A DNA stretch of 64,000 nucleotides from Chitinibacter sp. FCG-7 (GTDB taxonomy: Bacteria > Pseudomonadota > Gammaproteobacteria > Burkholderiales > Chitinibacteraceae), in assembly GCF_040047665.1 (NCBI RefSeq), contig NZ_CP157355.1, positions 3,224,001 through 3,288,000 of the forward strand. Reading direction: 5' to 3'. Shown here piece by piece: positions 7,328 through 20,823 of this stretch. A model generated the notes under the pieces. That model ran no database searches and was not told the DNA's origin. It saw only the letters and a list, made by a program, of their open reading frames with translations. The position numbers were made by a program, and so were the translations under genes. Each line of letters starts with the position of its first letter. Within the stretch, counting starts at the first letter, position 1.

Positions 7328-8389
7328 CGATATATATTAGCAATTTCAAATTCTCTTTCGCGCGCGGACAAAAAGAAAATCAAAGAAGCGCTCTCTCCTT
7401 ACCTACTGTTGGAAAGCGATATTTATGGGAAAGAAGATCTAAATGATTTGCTGAAAATAAAGCCTGATATAGAAAAACGACATTATAAGCTCTGGCTTCA
7501 AAGTGCCAGTGTGCTCAGTCATGTTTTAAATCATGCAGTTTTTGGGCGAAGTGAGTTTTCATTGCAAGAGACATTACAGTCTTCTTCAAAATATGCGGTG
7601 ACAGAAAATCATCGATTAGCTCTCGAGCTATTAGAAAAATTGCATGTGGTTATTATCACGGGCGAACCCGGGGTAGGAAAAACCACTCTTGCTGACCATC
7701 TATGTTTGCACTACGTAGCACAAGAATTTAGTTTTGTTAAAATAACTAATGAAGTGCGAGAAGCGGAGTCTATTTTTGAGAATGACAGTAAGCAGGTGTT
7801 CTATTTTGATGATTTTTTGGGGAGAAATTATTTGGATGCTCTCAAAGGACACGAAGGAAATCAAATAACTCAATTTATTCGACGAGTGTCCAGCAATAAA
7901 AACAAAAGATTCATTTTGACATCAAGAAGTACAATTTTAAATCAAGGCAAGCTACTTATAGATTGTTTTGAGCACAATAACTTGCAAAGAAATGAGTTTG
8001 AACTAAAGATCAAATCGCTATCTGAGTTAGATAAAGCTCACATTCTGTATAACCACATTTGGCATTCAGGGCTTGAGGAAGATTACATCAACCAGCTTTA
8101 TGTTGATAAGCGATGCAAATTAATTATCACTCATAAAAACTTTAATCCTCGGTTGATTGGCTATATCACAGATGCCAATAGAATTGAGAGCTATGGCACA
8201 ACCGAATATTGGTCATATATTAATCAGTCTTTAGATAATCCATCCTTGATGTGGGAGAATCCTTTTATTGCGCAACAGGATGATTTTGGGCGTGCAATCA
8301 TATTTCTAGTAGTGCTAAATGGCAAAGAGATTGCAGAGAAAAAATCAACGGGGGCATACCATTCGTTTACAGCACTACCCAGTAATTAA
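7328..8389 (+). CDS. Segment 2: STAND-type P-loop NTPase domain
   Basis: In frame with segment 1; an ATG-like start is available only at TTG 7409. The segment holds Walker A GEPGVGKTT (near 7663-7689) and Walker B VFYFDDFLGRN (near 7798-7830), then a sensor-like RFILTSRS, as in nSTAND NTPases. In this family the NTPase senses a trigger and oligomerises to activate the attached nuclease. It ends at TAA 8387-8389 after ALPSN, within what should be a continuous helical region. Confidence 0.6.
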   Translation, partial: RYILAISNSLSRADKKKIKEALSPYLLLESDIYGKEDLNDLLKIKPDIEKRHYKLWLQSASVLSHVLNHAVFGRSEFSLQETLQSSSKYAVTENHRLALELLEKLHVVIITGEPGVGKTTLADHLCLHYVAQEFSFVKITNEVREAESIFENDSKQVFYFDDFLGRNYLDALKGHEGNQITQFIRRVSSNKNKRFILTSRSTILNQGKLLIDCFEHNNLQRNEFELKIKSLSELDKAHILYNHIWHSGLEEDYINQLYVDKRCKLIITHKNFNPRLIGYITDANRIESYGTTEYWSYINQSLDNPSLMWENPFIAQQDDFGRAIIFLVVLNGKEIAEKKSTGAYHSFTALPSN

Positions 8390-9325
8390 AATTTTCAAGG
8401 TCGGCGTGATTTTCAGTCAAATATTCGACAGTTGACTGGTTCTTTTTTGAATAGAAGAGTATTTGATAGAGCTGCAACTCTAGATTTGTTTAATCCTTCA
8501 ATTGGTGATTATGTTTTACAGAGATATAAAGATGATGTGAGTATGTTGCGTAATGGCATGCAAAGCCTTAGATCGGAATCATCTTTAACTACATTATTAA
8601 GTTTGCAACGTAATGGGGATTTGTCAAAAGTTGACTTTAATGATATTTGTAACTTTATGATGGGTGAACTTGTAGCTTGTGGGTTTGAAGGTGTAAGCAC
8701 TTCGTATGTTTCGCTGTTATGTTTGTACCGAATTATTGAAATTAATGATGGTGAAATAATATTTCAAGGTGATTGGAGTTGCGCTATTGATTTTATACTT
8801 TTAAATGCCGATGGTTGTGCAACCTACGATTCATTTGTCGTTATTGAATGGGCGCTATCCGAAGGCGAGATAAGCAATAAGCAAGTGCTGGATTTTGTAG
8901 AAAAGAATGTTTGTTCTATTGGGTCGGATGATGAAATTCGAGCTGCATCATCTCTAATTTCGAGTGTGCCTACAACGATAGAAGCCTACCAGGAAAATGT
9001 GGAGCTGTTGAAAGAACATGTTATTAATTTAATGTGTGATAATTTTTGTGAATTTATTGAGGTTAGTGATGCCTTCTCTAAGGTTGGTTATGGAGAGTAT
9101 GATGAAGCAGAAAAAGAAATAAAAAACCTCATTAAATATAAACTTAGTGAATTGAATGTAAATTTTTTAGAAAGTGATATTGAGATCGTAGCAGGGTCAT
9201 ATAGTATCTCATATGAGCTTGATCGATACTATGAAGATCATGGCGATGATTATAGCTACGACAATGATAGAAGTTCAAAAGTATTTTCCATTAATGAAGT
9301 TGATGAGTTATTTGATCGGAGCTAG
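8390..9325 (+). CDS. Segment 3: C-terminal region of the STAND protein
   Basis: Same frame as segment 2. The first residues after the stop (NFQGRRDFQSNIRQLTGSFL) continue the typical post-NTPase linker, followed by VFDRAATLDLFNPSIGDYVL, a motif seen after the NTPase in such proteins. The rest is acidic, helical and unrecognised, probably the sensor part. The only local start is TTG at 8432 without a ribosome-binding site, so independent translation is doubtful. Confidence 0.55.
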   Translation, partial: NFQGRRDFQSNIRQLTGSFLNRRVFDRAATLDLFNPSIGDYVLQRYKDDVSMLRNGMQSLRSESSLTTLLSLQRNGDLSKVDFNDICNFMMGELVACGFEGVSTSYVSLLCLYRIIEINDGEIIFQGDWSCAIDFILLNADGCATYDSFVVIEWALSEGEISNKQVLDFVEKNVCSIGSDDEIRAASSLISSVPTTIEAYQENVELLKEHVINLMCDNFCEFIEVSDAFSKVGYGEYDEAEKEIKNLIKYKLSELNVNFLESDIEIVAGSYSISYELDRYYEDHGDDYSYDNDRSSKVFSINEVDELFDRS

Positions 9326-9356: not shown

Positions 9357-10892
9357 TCAATCAGCAAAAGCCTGCTTCACCATATCAACAACCCGTTCAC
9401 CAATTGCTGGGTTTTCGGCAAGGATTGGGTAGCGTTTGCAAAGCTGATTAGATAGCTCGTTGCCATTTTGCCGGATGCTGCGGATGATGCTATCTAGCTC
9501 ATTGTCCGGTGCTTCTAAAAATTGCTTGATTGCGTTGCGGGCCTGATCGTTGGCTTTTAAGAAACGGGCTTCTTTGCGCATTTCTTGTGTTAGCGTTGTG
9601 TCGATGATTTTGGCGAGATATTCGGCGTGTGCCGTGAGGTCGGGGTAGCGCCATGCGGGTAGTGCATCGTCGTAAGCACTGAAATAAAGATTGTATTCAA
9701 CGCCATCCTCGGCGATGACAGGCTCGCCAAACGCATATTGATCGGCATATTTGCGCATCAGGCGGCGCGAAAAACGCTCAAGCACTTTGTCATAAGCGGC
9801 GCGCGCTTGCGTGCTGTCGGCGATGGTCGCTGAAACTGGCAGAATAATCGGCGCGGGCACGAGGCCATCGCGGCGTAAGATGTCGTTGATTAAAAAGCGC
9901 GATATTCTGCCATTGCCATCCGCCATTGGATGAATATAAACAAAGCCGAAAGACGCGACTGCGGCGCGCACGATGGATGACGCGCCTTGGCTGCGTTTGA
10001 GAAAATGCGCAAGTCCTGAGAGAAGGGCGTTTGTTTGTTCCCAATGTGGGGCGATGTAATCAACGACCGCTTGATAATGATCTGAAGGAGCTGAAGGCCC
10101 AACGTAAACGGGTGAACGGCGCAGTCCATAGCGCAGTGCCATATCGCCCAAAATACCGCGCTGTAATAGGCTCAGGGTTTCGGGCGTGAATGGATTTTCG
10201 TGTTGCCCGCATTCGTTTTTCATGACGGCGGCAAAGCGGCGGATGCGGTCTTCTTTATCCTGCTCACGCTCAATCAGAAAACTGGCGCGGCTCTCTTTGA
10301 CGGTTAGCCAAACTGTACTGCGCAAAATCAGATCAACGCCGAAGTCTGATTCCAGCTCGGCCAGCTTGGCGGGTAAATCGTAGGTTTCAGTCGCCTGTAT
10401 TGCCGCGGTTCGACGAACGATAGGACAGTAATCGCGATTACCTGGCAGATTGTCACGCACCCGCCAGCGCGGGCAATTGATCGGAGTTCCGACTAGATAC
10501 AGTTCGGCATCAAGTGCATTAATGTAGTTGCCTCGCGTTAGATTGGGCGCAGCCAGCGTGTCATCCAATAACCATTCATACAAGAAGCAGGCGCGGCGGG
10601 CATAACTTCCTGTTGGTTCTCGCGCAATCCATTGTTCTAGCTCTTGCTTGATCAAAGTTTGAGAAAAAAGCCGAGCCAGAAATTCCAGATGGATGCCTTC
10701 ATACTTGAATGCAAAAGCCAGTTGTTCACTAAAACTGTCAAGAGGGCGGTAGCTTTCTGGGTAAACTTCAAAACGTATGTCACCGTCACTCGACGTGGAG
10801 CGGTTACGCCCAATTTCACTCTGTACGGCCAGAGGGTGTACCGGATGCACGTTGTAGGTCAGCGATAGCCATTGATACCCGATCTCATCCAT
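9357..10892 (-). CDS. Fic family protein (predicted AMPylase)
   Basis: A 511-residue protein with the Fic active-site loop HPMADGNGRISRFL, matching HPFx[D/E]GNGRxxR, so the catalytic His, metal-binding Asp and phosphate-binding Gly/Arg are present. Fic enzymes usually transfer AMP to hydroxyl side chains of target proteins. The N-terminal half carries AFAFKYEGIHLEFLARL, where a class II inhibitory helix would sit, but the Ser/Thr of the canonical inhibitory motif appears to be Ala. It stands alone, convergent with the STAND gene and next to the BREX locus, so a role in defence or growth control is possible. The target cannot be read from sequence. Confidence 0.85.
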   Translation of the reverse strand: MDEIGYQWLSLTYNVHPVHPLAVQSEIGRNRSTSSDGDIRFEVYPESYRPLDSFSEQLAFAFKYEGIHLEFLARLFSQTLIKQELEQWIAREPTGSYARRACFLYEWLLDDTLAAPNLTRGNYINALDAELYLVGTPINCPRWRVRDNLPGNRDYCPIVRRTAAIQATETYDLPAKLAELESDFGVDLILRSTVWLTVKESRASFLIEREQDKEDRIRRFAAVMKNECGQHENPFTPETLSLLQRGILGDMALRYGLRRSPVYVGPSAPSDHYQAVVDYIAPHWEQTNALLSGLAHFLKRSQGASSIVRAAVASFGFVYIHPMADGNGRISRFLINDILRRDGLVPAPIILPVSATIADSTQARAAYDKVLERFSRRLMRKYADQYAFGEPVIAEDGVEYNLYFSAYDDALPAWRYPDLTAHAEYLAKIIDTTLTQEMRKEARFLKANDQARNAIKQFLEAPDNELDSIIRSIRQNGNELSNQLCKRYPILAENPAIGERVVDMVKQAFAD

Positions 10893-11890: not shown

Positions 11891-12697
11891 TTAGTGCACT
11901 ACGGCTTCGGCAAAATAAGGGCGATAGCCTACACGAGGCAGACGGCTTTGGGGGTCTTGCCGATAAAAGAGTTTGAGCTGTTCGTACACCGCCGGATAGG
12001 TGTCGAGTAGCGTGTGTGGGTCTTCAAAAAATACTTCGGAGCAGACTGCAAAGCATTCGGCGGCATTGCTCGCGGCGTAGAGATCAATCGGGCTGTATTC
12101 GCCACGGTCTGCTTTTTGCTGCAAATCGATAAAGGCATGGCTAAATGCGGCCTGCCAGTGTTTCTGGTTCATACCGTGATGCAGCGGCGGGTTGCCATTG
12201 GGAAAACCATTGCGCATATCGAGTTTGTGCGCCAGCTCGTGAATGACGACATTAAAGCCATCTTGCCATGGCGCTTCCATCACATCGTGCCATGACAGTA
12301 ATACCGGCCCGTCGCTGCGCGCTTGTCCAGCCAGCACTTGCTCGCCTTCATGCACAAAGCCGTGGTGATCGCGCTCGCGAGTGGGCGTCACAAACTGGCT
12401 GGGATAAATAATGATTTCCTGCCAGTCATCGTAGGCGTCAAAGCCCAAATTCAAAATCGGCAACACCGCTTGCACGGCCAGCACCAGCCGCATGGGGTCG
12501 CTAAATTCAATGTCTTTAGCGGGGGAAATTGATTTGGTATGCAAGAACCACGCCGCTAGTGCTTTGAGGCGTTGTAATTCGTCGCTGCTGAGCCCGCGCA
12601 GTATCGGCATTGTGGTCAGCGGCTGCCAGAGTTCATCGTTAATCGGGTGGCGCTTGAGCCACCATTGGCGGTAGGCATTCTGGAAAAATTGCAACAT
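11891..12697 (-). CDS. mtfA: Zinc metallopeptidase MtfA (M90 family)
   Basis: A 268-residue cytosolic protein with the zinc-peptidase motif VVIHELAHKLDMRNG (HExxH), preceded by GPVLLSWHDVMEAPWQDGFN and followed by ECFAVCSEVFFEDP, which supplies the third ligand region. This is the pattern and length of MtfA, the Mlc/DgsA-interacting peptidase that modulates glucose PTS expression in enterobacteria; no Mlc is seen here. It is followed immediately by rsmJ. Confidence 0.93.
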   Translation of the reverse strand: MLQFFQNAYRQWWLKRHPINDELWQPLTTMPILRGLSSDELQRLKALAAWFLHTKSISPAKDIEFSDPMRLVLAVQAVLPILNLGFDAYDDWQEIIIYPSQFVTPTRERDHHGFVHEGEQVLAGQARSDGPVLLSWHDVMEAPWQDGFNVVIHELAHKLDMRNGFPNGNPPLHHGMNQKHWQAAFSHAFIDLQQKADRGEYSPIDLYAASNAAECFAVCSEVFFEDPHTLLDTYPAVYEQLKLFYRQDPQSRLPRVGYRPYFAEAVVH

Positions 12698-12934
12698 GGA
12701 TGTGCTCGGGCTATGGATATACCGTGCAGATTGTTATCTCAGGCTTTATTTTCAATCGTGATGGTCAATAATGAAGCTCGATTGCAGCGTGAATGTGTAC
12801 ACAAATCCACAAAATCAAGCTTTCGTAAGTTTACAGAGTAAGAGTTGGTTTATGCTGATAGGGTCTTGCCTATTGGGTGTATTGCCAATTGCGCCCTGTG
12901 CCGGATGTAATTTTCTTTTTATCGTGGTGACATT

Positions 12935-15262
12935 ATGTCGATTCGAGCTCGTCTTCTTCTGATCGCTGGTGCGGTGTATGGCGCAAGCATGATTGCACTG
13001 ATCATTTTTCTGAGCAGTGACTCGCAGGGAAGCATCTTGCTGGTCGGAGTGGTCGGCCTGCTGGTGCTACTGGCAGCGCTGTTCTGGGCCATGAACGATT
13101 CTCTGGGTCAACTAGGCAAACTCAGTGATGCGATTCGCACCCAGGCGGCCGAACATGGTGATTTGACCCTGCGTTTACCGGTCTCGGCTGGCGAAGTTGG
13201 CGAGCTGGCGCAGGCGTATAACCAGTTTGTCAGCAAATTCCAAAACGTGTTGCGCGATGTGCAGCGTGAAATGGAAGGGTTGGCGATCAGCTTGCATGAA
13301 TTGAGTTCAGTAACCGCCCAGATGGCCAAAGACACGCGCAGCCAGTCGGATTTTGCCGCCTCATCGGCTGCAACGGTCGAAGAAATTACGGTGAGTATCA
13401 ATCACATTGCCGATAGCGCGCGTGATATGGACTCGGTGGTGAGCGAAACGCAGCGTATTTCCGGCGATAGCGCCGATGCCGTACAACGGGTATCCGAGGA
13501 AGTTGGCCAGGTCTCGAATGCCATGGTTTCGTTGGGTAAAACCATGGATGGTCTGGGCGAGCGCTCGGTAGAAATCAGCGGGATTATCGGCGTGATCAAG
13601 GATATTGCCGATCAGACCAATTTGCTGGCGCTCAATGCGGCGATCGAAGCTGCGCGTGCTGGTGAGCAAGGGCGTGGTTTTGCGGTGGTTGCCGATGAAG
13701 TGCGCAAGCTGGCCGAACGCACCGCACAGGCCACTGTAGAAATTGCCCGCAAAATCGAATCGGTTGGGCTTGAAACCGATCGCGCAGTAAATAATATGTC
13801 AACCACGTCCGAGCGGGTAGGCCAGAGTGTGACGCTGGCTGATGATGCCCGTACCCATATGCTGGATATTCGTGAACGCATGGATCACGTGGTTAGTCTG
13901 GTACGTCAGATTGCCGATTCGACGACCGAGCAATCTTCCGCAGCAATGTCCATGGCCACTTCGTCCGAGCAAATCAATGTGATGACGATGGCGACTGATT
14001 CGGCCTTGCAACAAGCGAGCAAAACCATTGTTTCGCTCGATGATAGAGCCAAACGTCTGCTGCAAATCGTCGGCAGCTATAAACTGGCCGATATTGAAGT
14101 ATTGCACTGGTGGCAAGCGTCCAGCGAAGCCAAAGCGGTTTCTGAAATCAAGGCTTTGCTTAATCAGCGTGATCACCACTGGGTTGATGCCCAGATTGGT
14201 GGCGATAATCCAATGGGCTCGCTCAAACAGCGGGTTATCGCTGGTCATCCGCCTACGGCAGCCGCAATTGGCGGTGTTAAAATCCAGAACTGGGCCAAAG
14301 ACGGCGTGCTGGCCGATCTGACCGACATTGCCCAGCGCGAAAACTGGCCCAGCATTCTGCCTGCTGTACTCGACAAAATGATGCAGGCCGACGGCAAGTA
14401 TGTGGCTGTGCCTCTGGGCGTCGCACGCGTCAACATGATGTGGATTAATGCTGCAATGTTCAAGCGTACCGGCCAGAATGTGCCCAAAACCTGGGACGAG
14501 TTTTTTGCCGTGGGCGAGCGTTTCAAGCAAGCCGGTATTCCGATGATTGCGCTCGGTGAGCAACACTGGCAAATCGCCACCATTTTTGAAGCGCTGGCCT
14601 TGGGGCAGGGGGGCGCTGATTTTTATGTCAAAGCCTTCAGTCAGCTTGATCCTTCCGCTCTGACTGGCCCAGCGATGATTCGCGCTCTGGAAACATTGCG
14701 CCGCATGAAGCCTTATTGCACGCCCGATTCAGCCGGACGCGACTGGAATCTGGCCACCGCCGATGTGGTCAATGGCCGCGCTGCGTTGCAGATCATGGGC
14801 GACTGGTCCAAAGGTGAATTTGTGCAAGCGGGTAAAGAGCAAGGCGTTGATTACCTCTGTGTGCCATCACCTACCCTGAATGGCGAATACAGCTTTGCCG
14901 CCGATACCTTGACGATGTTCAAGTTGAGCGAGCCTAAAGCCATTACGGCACAGCGCGACTTTGTCAGCTTGCTGATGAGCCAGGAGGGGCAGGAAGTCTT
15001 CAATCTGTTTAAAGGTAATATCCCGGCGCGTACCGATGTGAATCTGAGCCGCTACGATGATTACGCCAAACAGTCGGCACGCGACTTTACCGGTGCCGCC
15101 AGCAAAGGTGTACTGGTGCCATCATGGGCGCATAATATGGCGGTGCAGGATGAAGTGCGTATGGCTTGGTTCGATATTATCGAAGCCTTCTGGCGCAACG
15201 CCAATATGAGCCCGCAAGACGCAGCCAAGCGCTTTGTTGATGCGTGCAGAATAGTGCGTTAA
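12935..15262 (+). CDS. Chemoreceptor fused at its C terminus to a sugar-binding protein domain
   Basis: 775 residues. Two hydrophobic helices (about 5-25 and 33-52) joined by a very short loop (SSDSQG) replace the usual periplasmic sensor. A HAMP-like region (53-105) follows, then a full methyl-accepting signalling domain (about 110-385) with the conserved tip [19 protein letters not shown] near residues 224-242. Residues 386-775 form an entire ABC-type solute-binding protein resembling Pseudomonas GtsA (glucose/mannose), with HWW at the start, [17 protein letters not shown] and GDWSKGEF segments, and [14 protein letters not shown]. By topology this domain lies in the cytoplasm; it has no signal peptide. 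Inference: a receptor that reads cytosolic sugar. The adjacent sugar ABC transporter fits the theme but uses a different binding protein. Confidence 0.9.
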
Positions 15263-15310
15263 TACTGACTGTACAGATTTAATTGTCACAAGTTGAAAGC
15301 TTTGAAATTT

Positions 15311-15365
15311 AAAGGGTATATCTCTGTAGCCTATAAATTAAAATGGCTATGGAGATATACCCTTA
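15311..15365. repeat. Dispersed intergenic palindrome, copy P1
   Basis: AAGGGTATATCTC (15312-15324) pairs perfectly with GAGATATACCCTT (15352-15364), with an inner GTAGCC/GGCTAT pairing and an A/T loop. It sits between two convergent genes and lacks a T tract. It belongs to a family also found at 23180, 28501, 34108, 38504, 39967, 42041, 46133 and 56048. Confidence 0.85.
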
Positions 15366-15369
15366 TTAT

Positions 15370-16338
15370 TTACTCCTCGCTTGGTGTCGTGCTCTTTGCT
15401 GAGCTCTCTTTGTAGCGATGCCATATCCAGCTTAGGGAAATGATTGCGGCAATGAGCAGTAGTGGCCACAGATGGCTCAGGGCAATGATCACTTCCAGCG
15501 TACCTTTCCAGCCTGCTTGCAGGGCAGCAAGAACTCTTTCGCCAAAAGCGGGCTCGGCTGCAAGTAACTCGGCGGATATGTCTTCATGCTCGCTGCGGCT
15601 GATCTGGCGATCCTGATATAAATTCAGGCGGATGGTGCTAAATGCGACCTGATCGGCGATCAGTTTGCTCTGGATAAGTGCTTCATCCTGTCTGGCCTGT
15701 AGCTGGTTTTGAGCCAGGATGCGCTCGGTAGCTGATGCGGCTGTGGTGCTGTCGGTATTGCCGAGCGCCTGGGCGCTGGATTGGTTGCGTGCCTGTGCCA
15801 GCTGTTGCTGCAGCAACTCCAGTGCGACGTCCTGCGCTGTGAAATCTCGCTCGTCCAGAAACAGAACCAGCGGCGCCAGTGCATGTAGCAGGTTCTGAGT
15901 CTCGGCGCTGGGCACGCGCAAGGTGATATTGCCGTTCAGTGTATATTCGGTCAGTCGCAAAATCCGGCCATTGGCCTGCTTGCGCTCATGCTGGGCATAT
16001 TGTTGCGACTCGATGTGGTTCTGGGTGATAAACCCACCGAGTTTGGCAACGATATTTTCAATTTGCATACTGCTCTGATACACATCCTTGACCCGAAAGC
16101 GCGCTTGAGCCTGCCGGATTAACTGACGGTTTTCCGGTGTCTGACTATTAGTGCTGGAGCTAAGTTGCTCTACTGCGCTTGTTTGGGTTGATTCGGTTTT
16201 GGCCGAATCAGTTCTGGCGGCATGCGAGGGGGCTGATTCGGCGACATCGGCAGGCATTCCGCCAGACATTTCTGCTTTTTTCCCGCAAGCAAAGAGCAGG
16301 CTTGTGCATAGCAAAACAGGCAAGGCAAGTTGGCGCAT
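15370..16338 (-). CDS. DUF4349 lipoprotein, membrane-anchored
   Basis: The 322-residue product starts with a lipoprotein signal (MRQLALPVLLCTSLLFAC, lipobox Cys at 18), then a Ser/Thr-rich linker, a DUF4349 core beginning RQLIRQAQARFRVKDVYQSS with FITQNHIESQ and NITLRVPSAE, a coiled coil (about 200-240), and one C-terminal membrane helix (WPLLLIAAIISLSWIW) with a basic tail. DUF4349 proteins are envelope proteins of unknown role. Being both lipidated and helix-anchored is common for this family. It is convergent with the chemoreceptor gene, with palindrome P1 between them. Confidence 0.85.
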   Translation of the reverse strand: MRQLALPVLLCTSLLFACGKKAEMSGGMPADVAESAPSHAARTDSAKTESTQTSAVEQLSSSTNSQTPENRQLIRQAQARFRVKDVYQSSMQIENIVAKLGGFITQNHIESQQYAQHERKQANGRILRLTEYTLNGNITLRVPSAETQNLLHALAPLVLFLDERDFTAQDVALELLQQQLAQARNQSSAQALGNTDSTTAASATERILAQNQLQARQDEALIQSKLIADQVAFSTIRLNLYQDRQISRSEHEDISAELLAAEPAFGERVLAALQAGWKGTLEVIIALSHLWPLLLIAAIISLSWIWHRYKESSAKSTTPSEE

Positions 16339-16494: not shown

Positions 16495-18207
16495 TTAGTA
16501 ATCGGGTAGCGTATTGCTCAGCGCTTGCAAGATGGCAAACATCGTCTGCAATTGCTTTGGAATGCTGTCACGGCCTTTGATTTCGGCTGCTTCGGCAATC
16601 TCCAGCGCCATCCCGGGTTTGCTGTGGTAGCGCAGCGCACGGGCGATGATTTCCTCATCGCTGTAATGCACCGGCGTTTGCAGCGCCAGCGCTGCGGCGT
16701 GTTGCGCTGACATTGGCGTTTTCAGATTGCTGGCGGCCTGGCGATACACCGCGTCAAAACCTTGCTCCCATAAATAGTGCTCAATATCGCGACTCGGCAA
16801 AACGGTGATATGGCGATCTTGCTCACGCTCTCGCAGCAGCTTTTGCGCGCGCTGCAGATATTTTTGTCCCGCCTCGTCGCCGTCACAAATCACATGCCAA
16901 TGGATGCCCAGATGATCGGCAAATTTGATCAGGGGGGCCAGTCCGGCTTGGGCAAACTCAACACAGCGAATGCCTTCCAGCGGGAAATTAAGGCCACAAA
17001 TGCGCGCTAATTCAGGCAATAGCCAGAATTCGGTTTCACCCTCGACCAGCAGCCAGACGCGCGCAAACATGCTGCTGGCGCGGTTGCTGCGGATATGAAA
17101 CGCCACTTTGCGCGCATCGGTAATTGACAAAGCATTGGCTGCCAATTGATACACATGCACATGATTGGGCCAGCGCACCAGACGGCGCAGCGCGTGTTGC
17201 GCAAAGCTGGCCAGCAAATCGCCATGATTGGTGGTGATGATTTTTTGCAGCGGCAATTGTTCGATCAAACCCCAGATCATCGCCAGCTGGATCGGGTGTA
17301 AATGCGTTTCCGGGTCTTCCATCACCAGAATAGGGCTGGCTCCAGCACTAAGCGCGTATTCACCGCGCGCATGCAGCAGCGCGCCAAGTAGCATCAGTAG
17401 TGCCACACGACGCAAATTCGATCCCGAACGATTTGCGATTTCAAGCAGACTGTCTTCATCGCGAAAATTAAGCGGCGCATTGGCGATTTGCTCGGCTAGT
17501 CTTTGTGCTGGCGCATCGGTTTTGACCAGCGCCATATTTTCGCTGAGTAATCGCTGCATCGCCGCTAAGCCTTGACGTAATTCTTGCGGATGAAGCTGAT
17601 GCGGCACCGTCAGAATCCGCTCAAACACCGTGCGGACGGCATCGCTGGCCGGCAATTGCGGGTCTTCCGGTTGGGGCTGATTGGATAGCCGCGGGTGCTC
17701 CAGCCAGTCGGTCAGCTGCATATCGCGAAAGCGCAGCACTGGATGCAGCTTGATCAGCAAGTCGGCGAGCTGATCACTGGCGGCGTGCTCGATTTCCGCG
17801 CCTTCGCCATCGATAAAAAACCGGCGGGCCCGGATGTCGCGATGGCCAAAACGCTCGGCAACAAAGCGCAGTGCCAGCGTGGGCAGCTCTGGTGCGTCAG
17901 TGTTATTGCGATTGGAATAAAAGCACAGTGGCTCAAATTCAGCAGAGGGGGTATTGCCCTGAAAGTACAGTGTGATATTGAGTCGCCGGGCAATACTGGC
18001 CCTGGTATTGGCGATACGATGAAAATCTTCCTGCGTAAACAGTGTTTCAACTGCCGCCGGCGCAGTCAGGCAGCGGCACAGCGCCACAATCAAGCTGGTT
18101 TTGCCCCAGTTGTTTTCGCCAAACAGCGCCGTCGCGATTTCATCCAGCGTTAAATCAATCTGGCTGATGCCGCGAAAATTGGTCACTTGCAATCGAATCA
18201 GTTGCAT
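16495..18207 (-). CDS. YbjD/OLD-like ATPase with TOPRIM domain
   Basis: The start at 18207 (MQLIRLQVTNFRGI) is chosen because SMC/RecF-type ATPases begin this way; an upstream ATG at 18252 would add 15 unrelated residues. Walker A is GENNWGKTS (about 30-38), the ABC-like Walker B is ILVMEDPETHLHP, and a TOPRIM domain follows with LLVEGETEFWLLPEL and CDGDEAGQKYL (acidic metal ligands). Length (570) and order match E. coli YbjD, an OLD-family predicted endonuclease. Overcoming-lysogenization-defect nucleases can act in phage defence or repair; a chromosomal housekeeping role is equally possible. Confidence 0.85.
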   Translation of the reverse strand: MQLIRLQVTNFRGISQIDLTLDEIATALFGENNWGKTSLIVALCRCLTAPAAVETLFTQEDFHRIANTRASIARRLNITLYFQGNTPSAEFEPLCFYSNRNNTDAPELPTLALRFVAERFGHRDIRARRFFIDGEGAEIEHAASDQLADLLIKLHPVLRFRDMQLTDWLEHPRLSNQPQPEDPQLPASDAVRTVFERILTVPHQLHPQELRQGLAAMQRLLSENMALVKTDAPAQRLAEQIANAPLNFRDEDSLLEIANRSGSNLRRVALLMLLGALLHARGEYALSAGASPILVMEDPETHLHPIQLAMIWGLIEQLPLQKIITTNHGDLLASFAQHALRRLVRWPNHVHVYQLAANALSITDARKVAFHIRSNRASSMFARVWLLVEGETEFWLLPELARICGLNFPLEGIRCVEFAQAGLAPLIKFADHLGIHWHVICDGDEAGQKYLQRAQKLLREREQDRHITVLPSRDIEHYLWEQGFDAVYRQAASNLKTPMSAQHAAALALQTPVHYSDEEIIARALRYHSKPGMALEIAEAAEIKGRDSIPKQLQTMFAILQALSNTLPDY

Positions 18208-18505
18208 CGGGCGCTCGATAGGGCGTGCGTGGCGATGCTGCGAGTCTAGCAAAGATTGCCGCTGTTGGGCTTTTGTGCCTCGTTAGGGGGCCTGTGCATC
18301 AGCTGCAATACGCAGCGTTTAGCCTTGTTCAGCGGCTTGCCGCGTCTGCAAGATGCTGTGATTAGCCAAAAAAGGATGAAAACGAGCCATTGCAGCATGT
18401 TCGGTGGGTGAAGAAATCGAGAATAAGCACTGTGTAGTGCCCTGGACATCGCTACATGACACTGAGTAGCACGACATCAAACCCGGAAAGACCCTGGAGG
18501 AAAGA

Positions 18506-19780
18506 ATGAAAAAGCACCCTGTTTCTCTGTACTGCCTGCCTTTGGCTGCGGCCTTGATGGCTGGTAGCGCGTTTGCACAAAAAACCACGGTCGAATTTTG
18601 GACCTTCAATCTGTCACCGTTTGCGCCGTATTTTGAAGAGTCGGTCAAAAAATTCAATGCCGCCAATCCAACACTGGAAGCCAAATGGGTGGACATGAAC
18701 TGGGATCAGATTCAGCCCAAGCTGATTACCGCCATGGCGGCGGGCAAAGCGCCTGCGCTGGTCAATTTCAACGTGCCTTGGACGCATGAATTCGCCCGCA
18801 AAGGCCATTTGCAAGCGATTGATACGCTGAGTAATGGCAGCAACCGTGCGGTGTATCTGCCTGTAGCCCTGGACGATCTGGCGGTAAACAATAAAGTTTA
18901 TGGCTTTCCGTTTTACAACTCGGTGTCGGTGATTGCCTACAACAAGGATTTGTTCAGCAAGGCCGGCATCAAGGCGCAGCCGACGACATTCAATGAATTT
19001 ATCGCCCAGGCTCGTCAAATCAAGGAAAAAACCGGTGTGCCAGCCTTTTCTCCCAAGCTGGCCACCAAAAGTGGCGATGGCGGTATGGTGCGCTGGTTTA
19101 TGTATCTCGGCCTGCCCGTCGTGCAAAACGGTAAGGCCGCTTTCAATACGCCTGAGCATGTAAAAGTGGTCGAATCCTTTGCTGATCTGTACCGCAGTGG
19201 CGTGATTCCAAAAGACAGCTTCCGGCTGGAATACGAGCAGGAAGTGGCGTCGTACTCATCTGGCAAGCTGGCCATGATGACCACATCATCCACTGCGCTA
19301 AAACGCGTTGAAGTGGATAACAAGGCCATGTACCAGAAAACCGAGGTGATGCCGTTCCCTATTGCCGAGGGCAAAATGGCCTTGGGTGCCTGGCTGATGA
19401 GCTATGTGATTCCAAAAGGCTACGCCAATACCGAAGCGGCGACCAAGCTGGGCTTGTTCCTGACCAGTGATGAGCGCCAGCTGGCAATTGCCCGCTTTAC
19501 CGAAACCATGCTGCCATCGTCGAAAAAAGCCACCGAAGATTCATATTTCATGGCCGGCAAAAACAGCAACGAGCCGATTGAGCGTGCCCGCGCTGCGGCA
19601 GCGCAATCGATGAAATACGCGCGTACGCCGATGCTGCCACCCAATGCACTGCCCGACGAAGCCACCATGATGAAGCTGTTTAACGATCAAATGCAGATGG
19701 CGATCGAAGGGCGCAAACCAGCGCAAAAAGCGCTGGCCGATGCCGCTGCTGATTGGAATCGCCGGATGGCCAAAAAATAA
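18506..19780 (+). CDS. Sugar ABC transporter substrate-binding protein (family 1)
   Basis: The 424-residue protein begins with a Sec signal peptide (cleavage after AGSAFA) preceded by a strong GGAGG ribosome-binding site. The mature part starts KTTVEFWTFNLSPFAPYFEE and continues as a cluster D solute-binding protein (PALVNFNVPWTHEFARKG; GFPFYNSVSVIAYNKDLF; GAWLMSYVIPKGYAN). It should deliver a mono- or oligosaccharide from the periplasm to the two permeases encoded downstream. The substrate is not evident. It is a different subgroup from the GtsA-like domain in the nearby chemoreceptor. Confidence 0.92.
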   Translation: MKKHPVSLYCLPLAAALMAGSAFAQKTTVEFWTFNLSPFAPYFEESVKKFNAANPTLEAKWVDMNWDQIQPKLITAMAAGKAPALVNFNVPWTHEFARKGHLQAIDTLSNGSNRAVYLPVALDDLAVNNKVYGFPFYNSVSVIAYNKDLFSKAGIKAQPTTFNEFIAQARQIKEKTGVPAFSPKLATKSGDGGMVRWFMYLGLPVVQNGKAAFNTPEHVKVVESFADLYRSGVIPKDSFRLEYEQEVASYSSGKLAMMTTSSTALKRVEVDNKAMYQKTEVMPFPIAEGKMALGAWLMSYVIPKGYANTEAATKLGLFLTSDERQLAIARFTETMLPSSKKATEDSYFMAGKNSNEPIERARAAAAQSMKYARTPMLPPNALPDEATMMKLFNDQMQMAIEGRKPAQKALADAAADWNRRMAKK

Positions 19781-19935
19781 GCCACAGGCATCCGCTATCG
19801 GTCGGTTGCGGATGCCTTGCTGCTGATGTGCTGTGTGAATTAATGAATTGCGCGTGAAATAAGCTGCTGATCATCAATGATGGTTAGCGCTGGTATATCC
19901 CATTCCCGATTTGGCTTTTGCAAGCAGGTGTTTGA

Positions 19936-20823
19936 ATGAAACCCCGTCATACCTATATTCTCGTGGCCTATCTTTTTCTGGGCCCGGCATTAATCCTGTT
20001 GGCTCTGTTTACTTTTCTGCCGGTTGGTTTTAATACCTATCTTGCATTTCATGAATACAATATTTCCGATGGTTCGGCCACCTGGCTGGGGCTGGAGAAT
20101 TTTGAATACATTTATCATGAAGAGCTATTTCATAGTGCACTGAAAAACTCGCTGATTTATTTGCTGATTGTGCCCATTGTGCAAATCATGGCGCTGGTGA
20201 GCGCCAAGCTGGTTAATAATCAGCTGCCCGGTATGACGCTGGTGCGGGCCACCATTTATATCCCGGTGATTACCGCCATTTCAATTGCCGGCGTGGTGTG
20301 GGGCTTTGTTTATAAATACGACGGCATGCTCAATGGATTTTTTAGCTGGCTGGGGCAGCACACCTGGTTGCTTGAAGCGGGCGAGTTGATCGAAATCGAC
20401 TGGCTGGGGGATCCGGATATTGCCCTGTATGCCACCATGGCCTTTACCTGCTGGAAAGGCGTTGGCTATTACATGGTGCTGTATCTGGCTGGCCTGCAGG
20501 CTATTCCGCGCGAAGTGGAGGAGGCCGCCGAGCTTGATGGTGCCAATGCCTGGCAGCGTTTCTGGAAAATCACCGTCCCCATGGTCAAGCCGACCATTTT
20601 GCTGTGCACGCTGCTATCGACCATTGCAGCCTTAAAAGCTTTTCAGGAGGTGATCGTACTCTCCAAAGGGCAGGCCGATACCTATACCGCGCTGTATTAC
20701 GTTTACGATCAGGCATTTAAAAATTTTGTCTTTGGCCGCTCGGCAGCGGCTGGGCTGGTGGTGACTTTCTTTTGCGTTTTATTGGCGATTGCGCAATTCA
20801 GAATGTTCCGGGAAAAAGATTAG
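19936..20823 (+). CDS. Sugar ABC transporter permease, MalF/UgpA type
   Basis: A 295-residue inner-membrane protein with six predicted helices beginning TYILVAYLFLGPALILLALF and the EAA coupling loop EEAAELDGANAWQRFWKITVPMVKP. It lies 155 bp after the binding-protein gene on the same strand and 50 bp before the second permease, forming a binding protein-permease-permease operon. No ATP-binding subunit is encoded in the operon, so it probably borrows a shared MsiK/MalK-like ATPase from elsewhere. Confidence 0.92.
   Translation: MKPRHTYILVAYLFLGPALILLALFTFLPVGFNTYLAFHEYNISDGSATWLGLENFEYIYHEELFHSALKNSLIYLLIVPIVQIMALVSAKLVNNQLPGMTLVRATIYIPVITAISIAGVVWGFVYKYDGMLNGFFSWLGQHTWLLEAGELIEIDWLGDPDIALYATMAFTCWKGVGYYMVLYLAGLQAIPREVEEAAELDGANAWQRFWKITVPMVKPTILLCTLLSTIAALKAFQEVIVLSKGQADTYTALYYVYDQAFKNFVFGRSAAAGLVVTFFCVLLAIAQFRMFREKD

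Follow-up and report, generated by a model that had tools for sequence, protein, structure and literature searches.

Architecture of the receptor gene

The window analyzed here is a stretch of 64,000 nucleotides from Chitinibacter sp. FCG-7 (contig NZ_CP157355.1, positions 3,224,001 to 3,288,000), and coordinates are positions within it unless another locus is named. The gene in question lies at 12935-15262 (+), where a frame uninterrupted from ATG to stop encodes a product of 775 amino acids (aa) that consists of a transmembrane hairpin, a HAMP domain, the signaling hairpin of a methyl-accepting chemotaxis protein (MCP) and a solute-binding protein (SBP). The two membrane helices indicated by hydropathy span about residues 5-27 (12947-13015, +) and 33-55 (13031-13099, +), correspond to helices 3-26 and 31-71 of the structure model (mean pLDDT 82.4) and are joined by a loop of just a few residues. 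They are followed by HAMP at residues 60-100 (13112-13234, +), a borderline match to Pfam PF00672 with 26.2 bits at a cut-off of 25, and by the MCP hairpin (13193-14074, +), which is formed in the model by helices 87-241 and 243-380, turns at about residue 242 and matches Pfam MCPsignal at residues 183-349 with 162 bits. The kinase-contact tip (residues 227-256; 13613-13702, +) is intact and nearly invariant in an alignment of 38 fused members. Based on the model helices and a simple hydropathy scan, both the N-terminal anchor and the cytosolic signaling part are predicted to be present. The adaptation helices harbor the stretches VEEITVS and SSEQIN, which are candidate CheR/CheB methylation stretches.

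A junction of residues 381-386 (14075-14092, +), constant in length in the 38 members, connects the returning helix to the first strand of the SBP (residues 387-390). Residues 386-775 (14090-15259, +) form a complete SBP with the fold of the Pseudomonas glucose-binding protein. Pfam SBP_bac_1 is matched at residues 414-687 (87.7 bits) along with SBP_bac_8, and residues 386-772 align to the glucose-binding protein of Pseudomonas putida CSV86 (ppGBP; 5dvf) with an E value of 1.3e-97. The VIA-align and Foldseek matches listed for the protein fall on the SBP part. The Pfam matches, the alignment to 5dvf and the model agree with the initial annotation of this DNA in its coordinates, in the SBP limits 386-775 and in the label 'GtsA-like'. 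Its placement of the SBP behind the kinase-control tip is not supported, as in the model the returning helix leads away from the tip and the SBP comes to lie at the adaptation end of the bundle, near the membrane. No CZB family was among the Pfam matches of the protein at an E value of 0.001, Rfam gave no match across 12600-15500, and no convincing promoter was found for the receptor gene.

Conservation and origin of the fusion

The fusion of receptor and SBP was confirmed to be real and conserved across the family. In a protein search restricted to long proteins, the best 120 of 148 matches include 70 proteins of more than 700 aa, the window protein among them, that carry both MCP and SBP domains, and all counts per 70 fusions given below refer to this set. 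Two further long proteins, P0117 and P0120, were excluded from it, and P0055 is a 545-residue piece that carries both domains. A search started from another branch added at least five fusions (P0240-P0244). Named carriers are Chitinibacter, Deefgea, Chitiniphilus, Chitinolyticbacter, Andreprevotia, Silvimonas, Chitinilyticum, Jeongeupia, Amantichitinum and Iodobacter, and a second branch with the same architecture has Catenovulum as its sole named member. The architecture is thus not confined to Neisseriales.

In genomes, a fused-length frame was defined as a match to the SBP part whose open frame reaches 770 or more and whose identity is 53% or higher; a long frame in G037 at 45% identity was excluded as spurious. 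Such frames occur in 35 of the 43 genomes of the window's family, its own included, with two frames in 16 genomes and 51 in total, none of which contains an internal stop. Of the eight family genomes lacking the fusion, three gave no match at an E value of 1e-30 and five contain stand-alone-length frames only. In a phylum sample of 398 genomes, searched at 1e-40 with scoring limited to four candidates in each genome, fused-length frames were found in the own genome only. This genome encodes 29 MCP domains. Besides the window fusion it has another at genome positions 1852594-1854834, with 55% identity, and a stand-alone relative with 47% identity, after which two permeases and an ATPase are encoded.

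The presence of fused relatives in many genomes excludes chance or artefact. MCP and SBP genes may adjoin each other, as in Vibrio sp. THAF190c, where an MCP gene ends 10 bases before a related SBP gene. However, a sequencing or assembly join of two such genes is practically out of the question at this locus and was rejected, given the fused proteins and frames listed above, the single clade that each half forms, and an alignment in which the columns for residues 92-423 are free of gaps in all 38 members; a stop or start near residue 385, which would betray such a join, was seen in none of these relatives. A scan of genome contigs picked up the MCP tip, and the SBP part was present in none of its 80 loci. 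One of them, L001, was rejected as a fused relative, being an MCP alone; the sequence of another, L029, stops at residue 220.

Each half of the protein forms a single clade in the sets compared. When 43 fused SBP domains were placed in a tree with 46 stand-alone SBPs, they grouped as one clade with support of 100/99, and FastTree recovered the fusion clade at 0.999 from 70 fusions, 163 stand-alone proteins and ppGBP. The MCP halves of the same 43 fusions likewise form one clade against 67 other MCPs (SH-aLRT 99, by a quick method); the latter are those of 85 controls that passed a length filter, which comprised 79 of the 80 contig-scan loci (L029 omitted) and six loci of the own genome; L001 is among the 67. 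A single fusion event that was inherited as a unit would explain both trees, and an unsampled relative could alter this picture. The sister group of the fused SBPs consists of the stand-alone proteins P0086, P0125 and P0164 (100/100), which have signal-like N termini and both cysteines of ppGBP. An order-wide search with P0164 gave no match in 399 genomes at an E value of 1e-128, a cut-off too strict to show absence.

Topology, binding pocket and proposed function

Chemoreceptor tips must face the cytosol to reach CheA, and no membrane-spanning segment is seen after the tip by model or hydropathy. This places the SBP on the cytosolic side. No exporting segment precedes the SBP domain, which starts about six residues after the MCP hairpin, so that, as read from the sequence, the SBP is left without a visible way out of the cytosol. 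Hydrophobic stretches beyond residue 90 occur in four of the 70 fusions, each 17 residues wide and within the SBP. The cysteines at ppGBP positions 288 and 356, which presumably form a disulphide, are present in all 163 stand-alone proteins among the matches listed, whereas the fusions have tyrosine at position 356 throughout (70/70) and cysteine at position 288 in 25 of 70. Arrival of the SBP in the periplasm after all is extremely improbable. Many relatives are named 'extracellular solute-binding protein' in their sources, a label that derives from the SBP family alone; the position of the tip, the lack of a visible membrane segment beyond it and the retention of both cysteines in the sister SBPs, but not in the fusions, argue against a periplasmic SBP. 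The one-piece receptor of the initial annotation, in which the MCP hairpin is intact and a full SBP lies on the cytosolic side, is supported and is kept across the family.

Twelve residues contact glucose in the CSV86 protein, according to passages of PMC7927077. The window protein retains nine of them (W35, W36, E41, G68, W250, W270, D303, K339 and H379), and its twelve pocket places read WWEGAGWWADKH. All 70 fusions carry W36, W270, D303, K339 and H379; W250 is found in 63 of them, E41 in 29, W35 in 20 and G68 in 19. Invariant positions make up 7 of the 12 in the pocket, compared with 55 of 390 for the domain (P 0.0003). The closest solved relatives bind glucose or galactose by their titles. 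It appears probable that this membrane-anchored chemoreceptor, which lacks a periplasmic sensor, reads a small molecule of the cytosol through a fused, formerly periplasmic sugar-binding protein. The ligand would most likely be a sugar or sugar derivative, and the receptor probably reports sugar that is already in the cytoplasm rather than outside. The findings contain no pointer to a phosphorylated sugar or chito-sugar in particular.

Several observations weigh against this interpretation. None of the 70 fusions has Q90, K92 or N301 (alanine stands in place of Q90 and N301, and glycine, alanine or arginine in place of K92), and the seven invariant positions of the pocket include two, A444 and A655, at which the contact residue has given way to alanine. 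W35, E41 and G68 differ between fusion subgroups. Neither glucose nor one common ligand can therefore be assumed. The count of membrane segments in the first 90 residues is ragged by the simple scan, in which overlapping hydropathy peaks were counted separately: two segments were found in 32 of the 70 fusions, three in 22, four in eight, five in four, six in two and one in two. The Thermus glucose-binding protein lacks both cysteines, and the tyrosine at position 356 may be a single event because all fusions share one ancestor, so that cysteine loss is no proof of a cytosolic location. Finally, among 12 loci compared (the own locus and 11 of relatives, whose flanks were matched against the genes of the window only), synteny of the neighboring genes mtfA and rsmJ is limited to four of the 11 relatives' loci (L134-L137), and this synteny gives no partner.

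The altered pocket bears on two other explanations. It is unlikely that the fused SBP binds no small molecule and serves as a rigid body that either docks a protein partner (transporter, enzyme or adaptation protein) or sets the spacing of receptors in the array. The universal loss of Q90, K92 and N301 and the loss of W35 and E41 in subgroups would fit such a role, as would the loss in fusions of N141, H143 and W147, which are fixed in most stand-alone SBPs. However, five contacts are invariant throughout, invariance is more frequent in the pocket than elsewhere in the domain, and the nearest stand-alone SBPs, which have signal-like N termini, likewise lack the three residues; by parsimony, this is not decay after fusion. 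Rather doubtful, too, is a narrower form of the proposed function, in which the ligand is ordinary free glucose of the cytosol and the SBP gauges uptake or hydrolysis of imported sugars. The titles of the solved relatives and the nine retained contacts speak for glucose, and the own genome encodes an SBP with a classical pocket (genome positions 2834696-2835886) ahead of two permeases and an ATPase. Against free glucose stands the absence of Q90, K92 and N301. In the CSV86 protein, alanine exchange of six residues including K92 lowered glucose binding, as reported in passages of PMC12918735, and in P. aeruginosa signaling by GltB was abolished when glucose-binding residues were exchanged for alanine, as stated in the abstract of PMC7927077.

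The sister group suggests when the pocket changed. The twelve places read WWEAAGWWADKH in P0164, WWEATGWWADKH in P0125 and WWEGAGWWDDKH in P0086; by pairwise reading they are GWGGAGWWADKH in the second fusion of the own genome and YWEGQKWWNDKH in its transporter SBP. As the sister SBPs already lack Q90, K92 and N301, the change in specificity would, by parsimony, predate the move into the cytosol. The window protein would have kept the changed specificity, and the second paralogue altered it further.

A cytosolic ligand sensor of this kind could act on the signaling bundle from its C-terminal end. Since the SBP hangs by about six residues of fixed spacing (constant in 38 members) from the end of the returning helix, it would lie beside HAMP and the adaptation end, not the tip. 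The two SBP lobes would close on the ligand, and this closure may alter the packing or twist of the helix end and bias the adaptation bundle, so that the signal would pass through the short, length-fixed junction and the returning helix to CheA at the tip. We lean slightly towards the view that cells steer their swimming by an internal free sugar or sugar-like metabolite without periplasmic sensing, and that the paralogues in two-copy lineages, with pockets that have diverged, read two different cytosolic ligands. If true, this would offer directly testable sensing of an internal nutrient by direct binding and show how a two-lobe domain can drive a signaling bundle from the C-terminal end, and the label 'extracellular solute-binding protein' in public records would be corrected.

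Gene neighborhood and comparison with known systems

The receptor gene is directly flanked by genes for MtfA and a DUF4349 protein. The MtfA-like M90 peptidase gene (11891-12697, -) is divergent from it and is followed by rsmJ; the Pfam family of MtfA carries the title 'glucose-regulated'. Ten of the 11 relatives' loci yielded the fused gene, and in the remaining one, L139, the simple open reading frame picker took overlapping frames. Further away, a gene for a UgpB-like SBP is followed by an ABC permease gene from 19936 (together 18506-20823, +). Two adjoining TTG-start frames at 7409-9325 (+), of which the first encodes an nSTAND3 P-loop ATPase (175 bits) and the second has no Pfam match, are possibly one defence-type system. 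The window also encodes a Fic-domain protein of 511 aa (9357-10892, -) and a DUF2813/OLD-like ATPase of 585 aa with a TOPRIM domain (16495-18252, -).

Relatives of the sister-group SBPs, likewise stand-alone, were located at L153:9229-10539, L154:9628-10905 and L155:9528-13160; they lack Q90, K92 and N301 and keep both cysteines. L156 was rejected as a protein of this type, having the classical Q, K and N. The L153 gene adjoins ftsK, and long neighboring frames in L154 and L155 read like off-frames of ftsK; on the other side, in all three loci, lie a gene for a LysR-type regulator and a frame of 135-160 aa without Pfam match. No permease gene was among the tested neighbors in L153-L155, where some of the frames were annotated; the last frame of L153, about 9 kb from the SBP, resembles an ABC ATPase. 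No ligand emerged from the gene context of these three loci.

By the prevailing view, SBPs belong outside the cytosol, which is also where chemoreceptors encounter them. The window SBP shares the full two-lobe fold and 42% identity over the whole domain with the CSV86 protein. It differs in lacking an export segment, in its fusion behind an MCP, in the replacement of Q90, K92 and N301 and in its broken cysteine pair. As in GltB/GtrS and the E. coli receptors, an SBP and a receptor would jointly sense a solute. In those systems, however, a separate periplasmic SBP docks on the outer domain of the receptor, according to passages of PMC7927077 and PMC9602780, whereas the window SBP is covalently attached and cytosolic. 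A two-gene counterpart exists on a megaplasmid of Vibrio sp. THAF190c (P0121/P0122; L130:4936-8176), the only plasmid record that covers 80% of the query; phages gave no match. The Vibrio SBP also lacks W35, Q90 and K92, but it is encoded by a separate gene, keeps both cysteines behind a signal-like N terminus, lies outside the sister group of the fused SBPs and stands beside an MCP with a large outer domain.

The initial annotation did not know this design as described, and by title and start of abstract no open-licence paper among the matches listed deals with a sugar SBP at the C terminus of an MCP. A survey states in its passages on SBP Pfam profiles that these also match sensor domains and cytosolic proteins, and an MCP-SBP architecture is not named there (PMC9602780). 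The nearest parallel is Helicobacter pylori TlpD and the CZB chemoreceptors, in which, according to passages of PMC12871147, a ligand-binding domain follows the signaling hairpin on the cytosolic side and the C-terminal domain of TlpD is structurally coupled to the tip. The window protein shares this domain order, with a predicted ligand-binding role for its SBP. TlpD is soluble with a helical zinc-binding domain, whereas the window receptor has a membrane hairpin and an ABC-type sugar SBP. Chemoreceptors whose sensor sits at a cytosolic C terminus are already known, and the sugar SBP as the predicted sensor is new.
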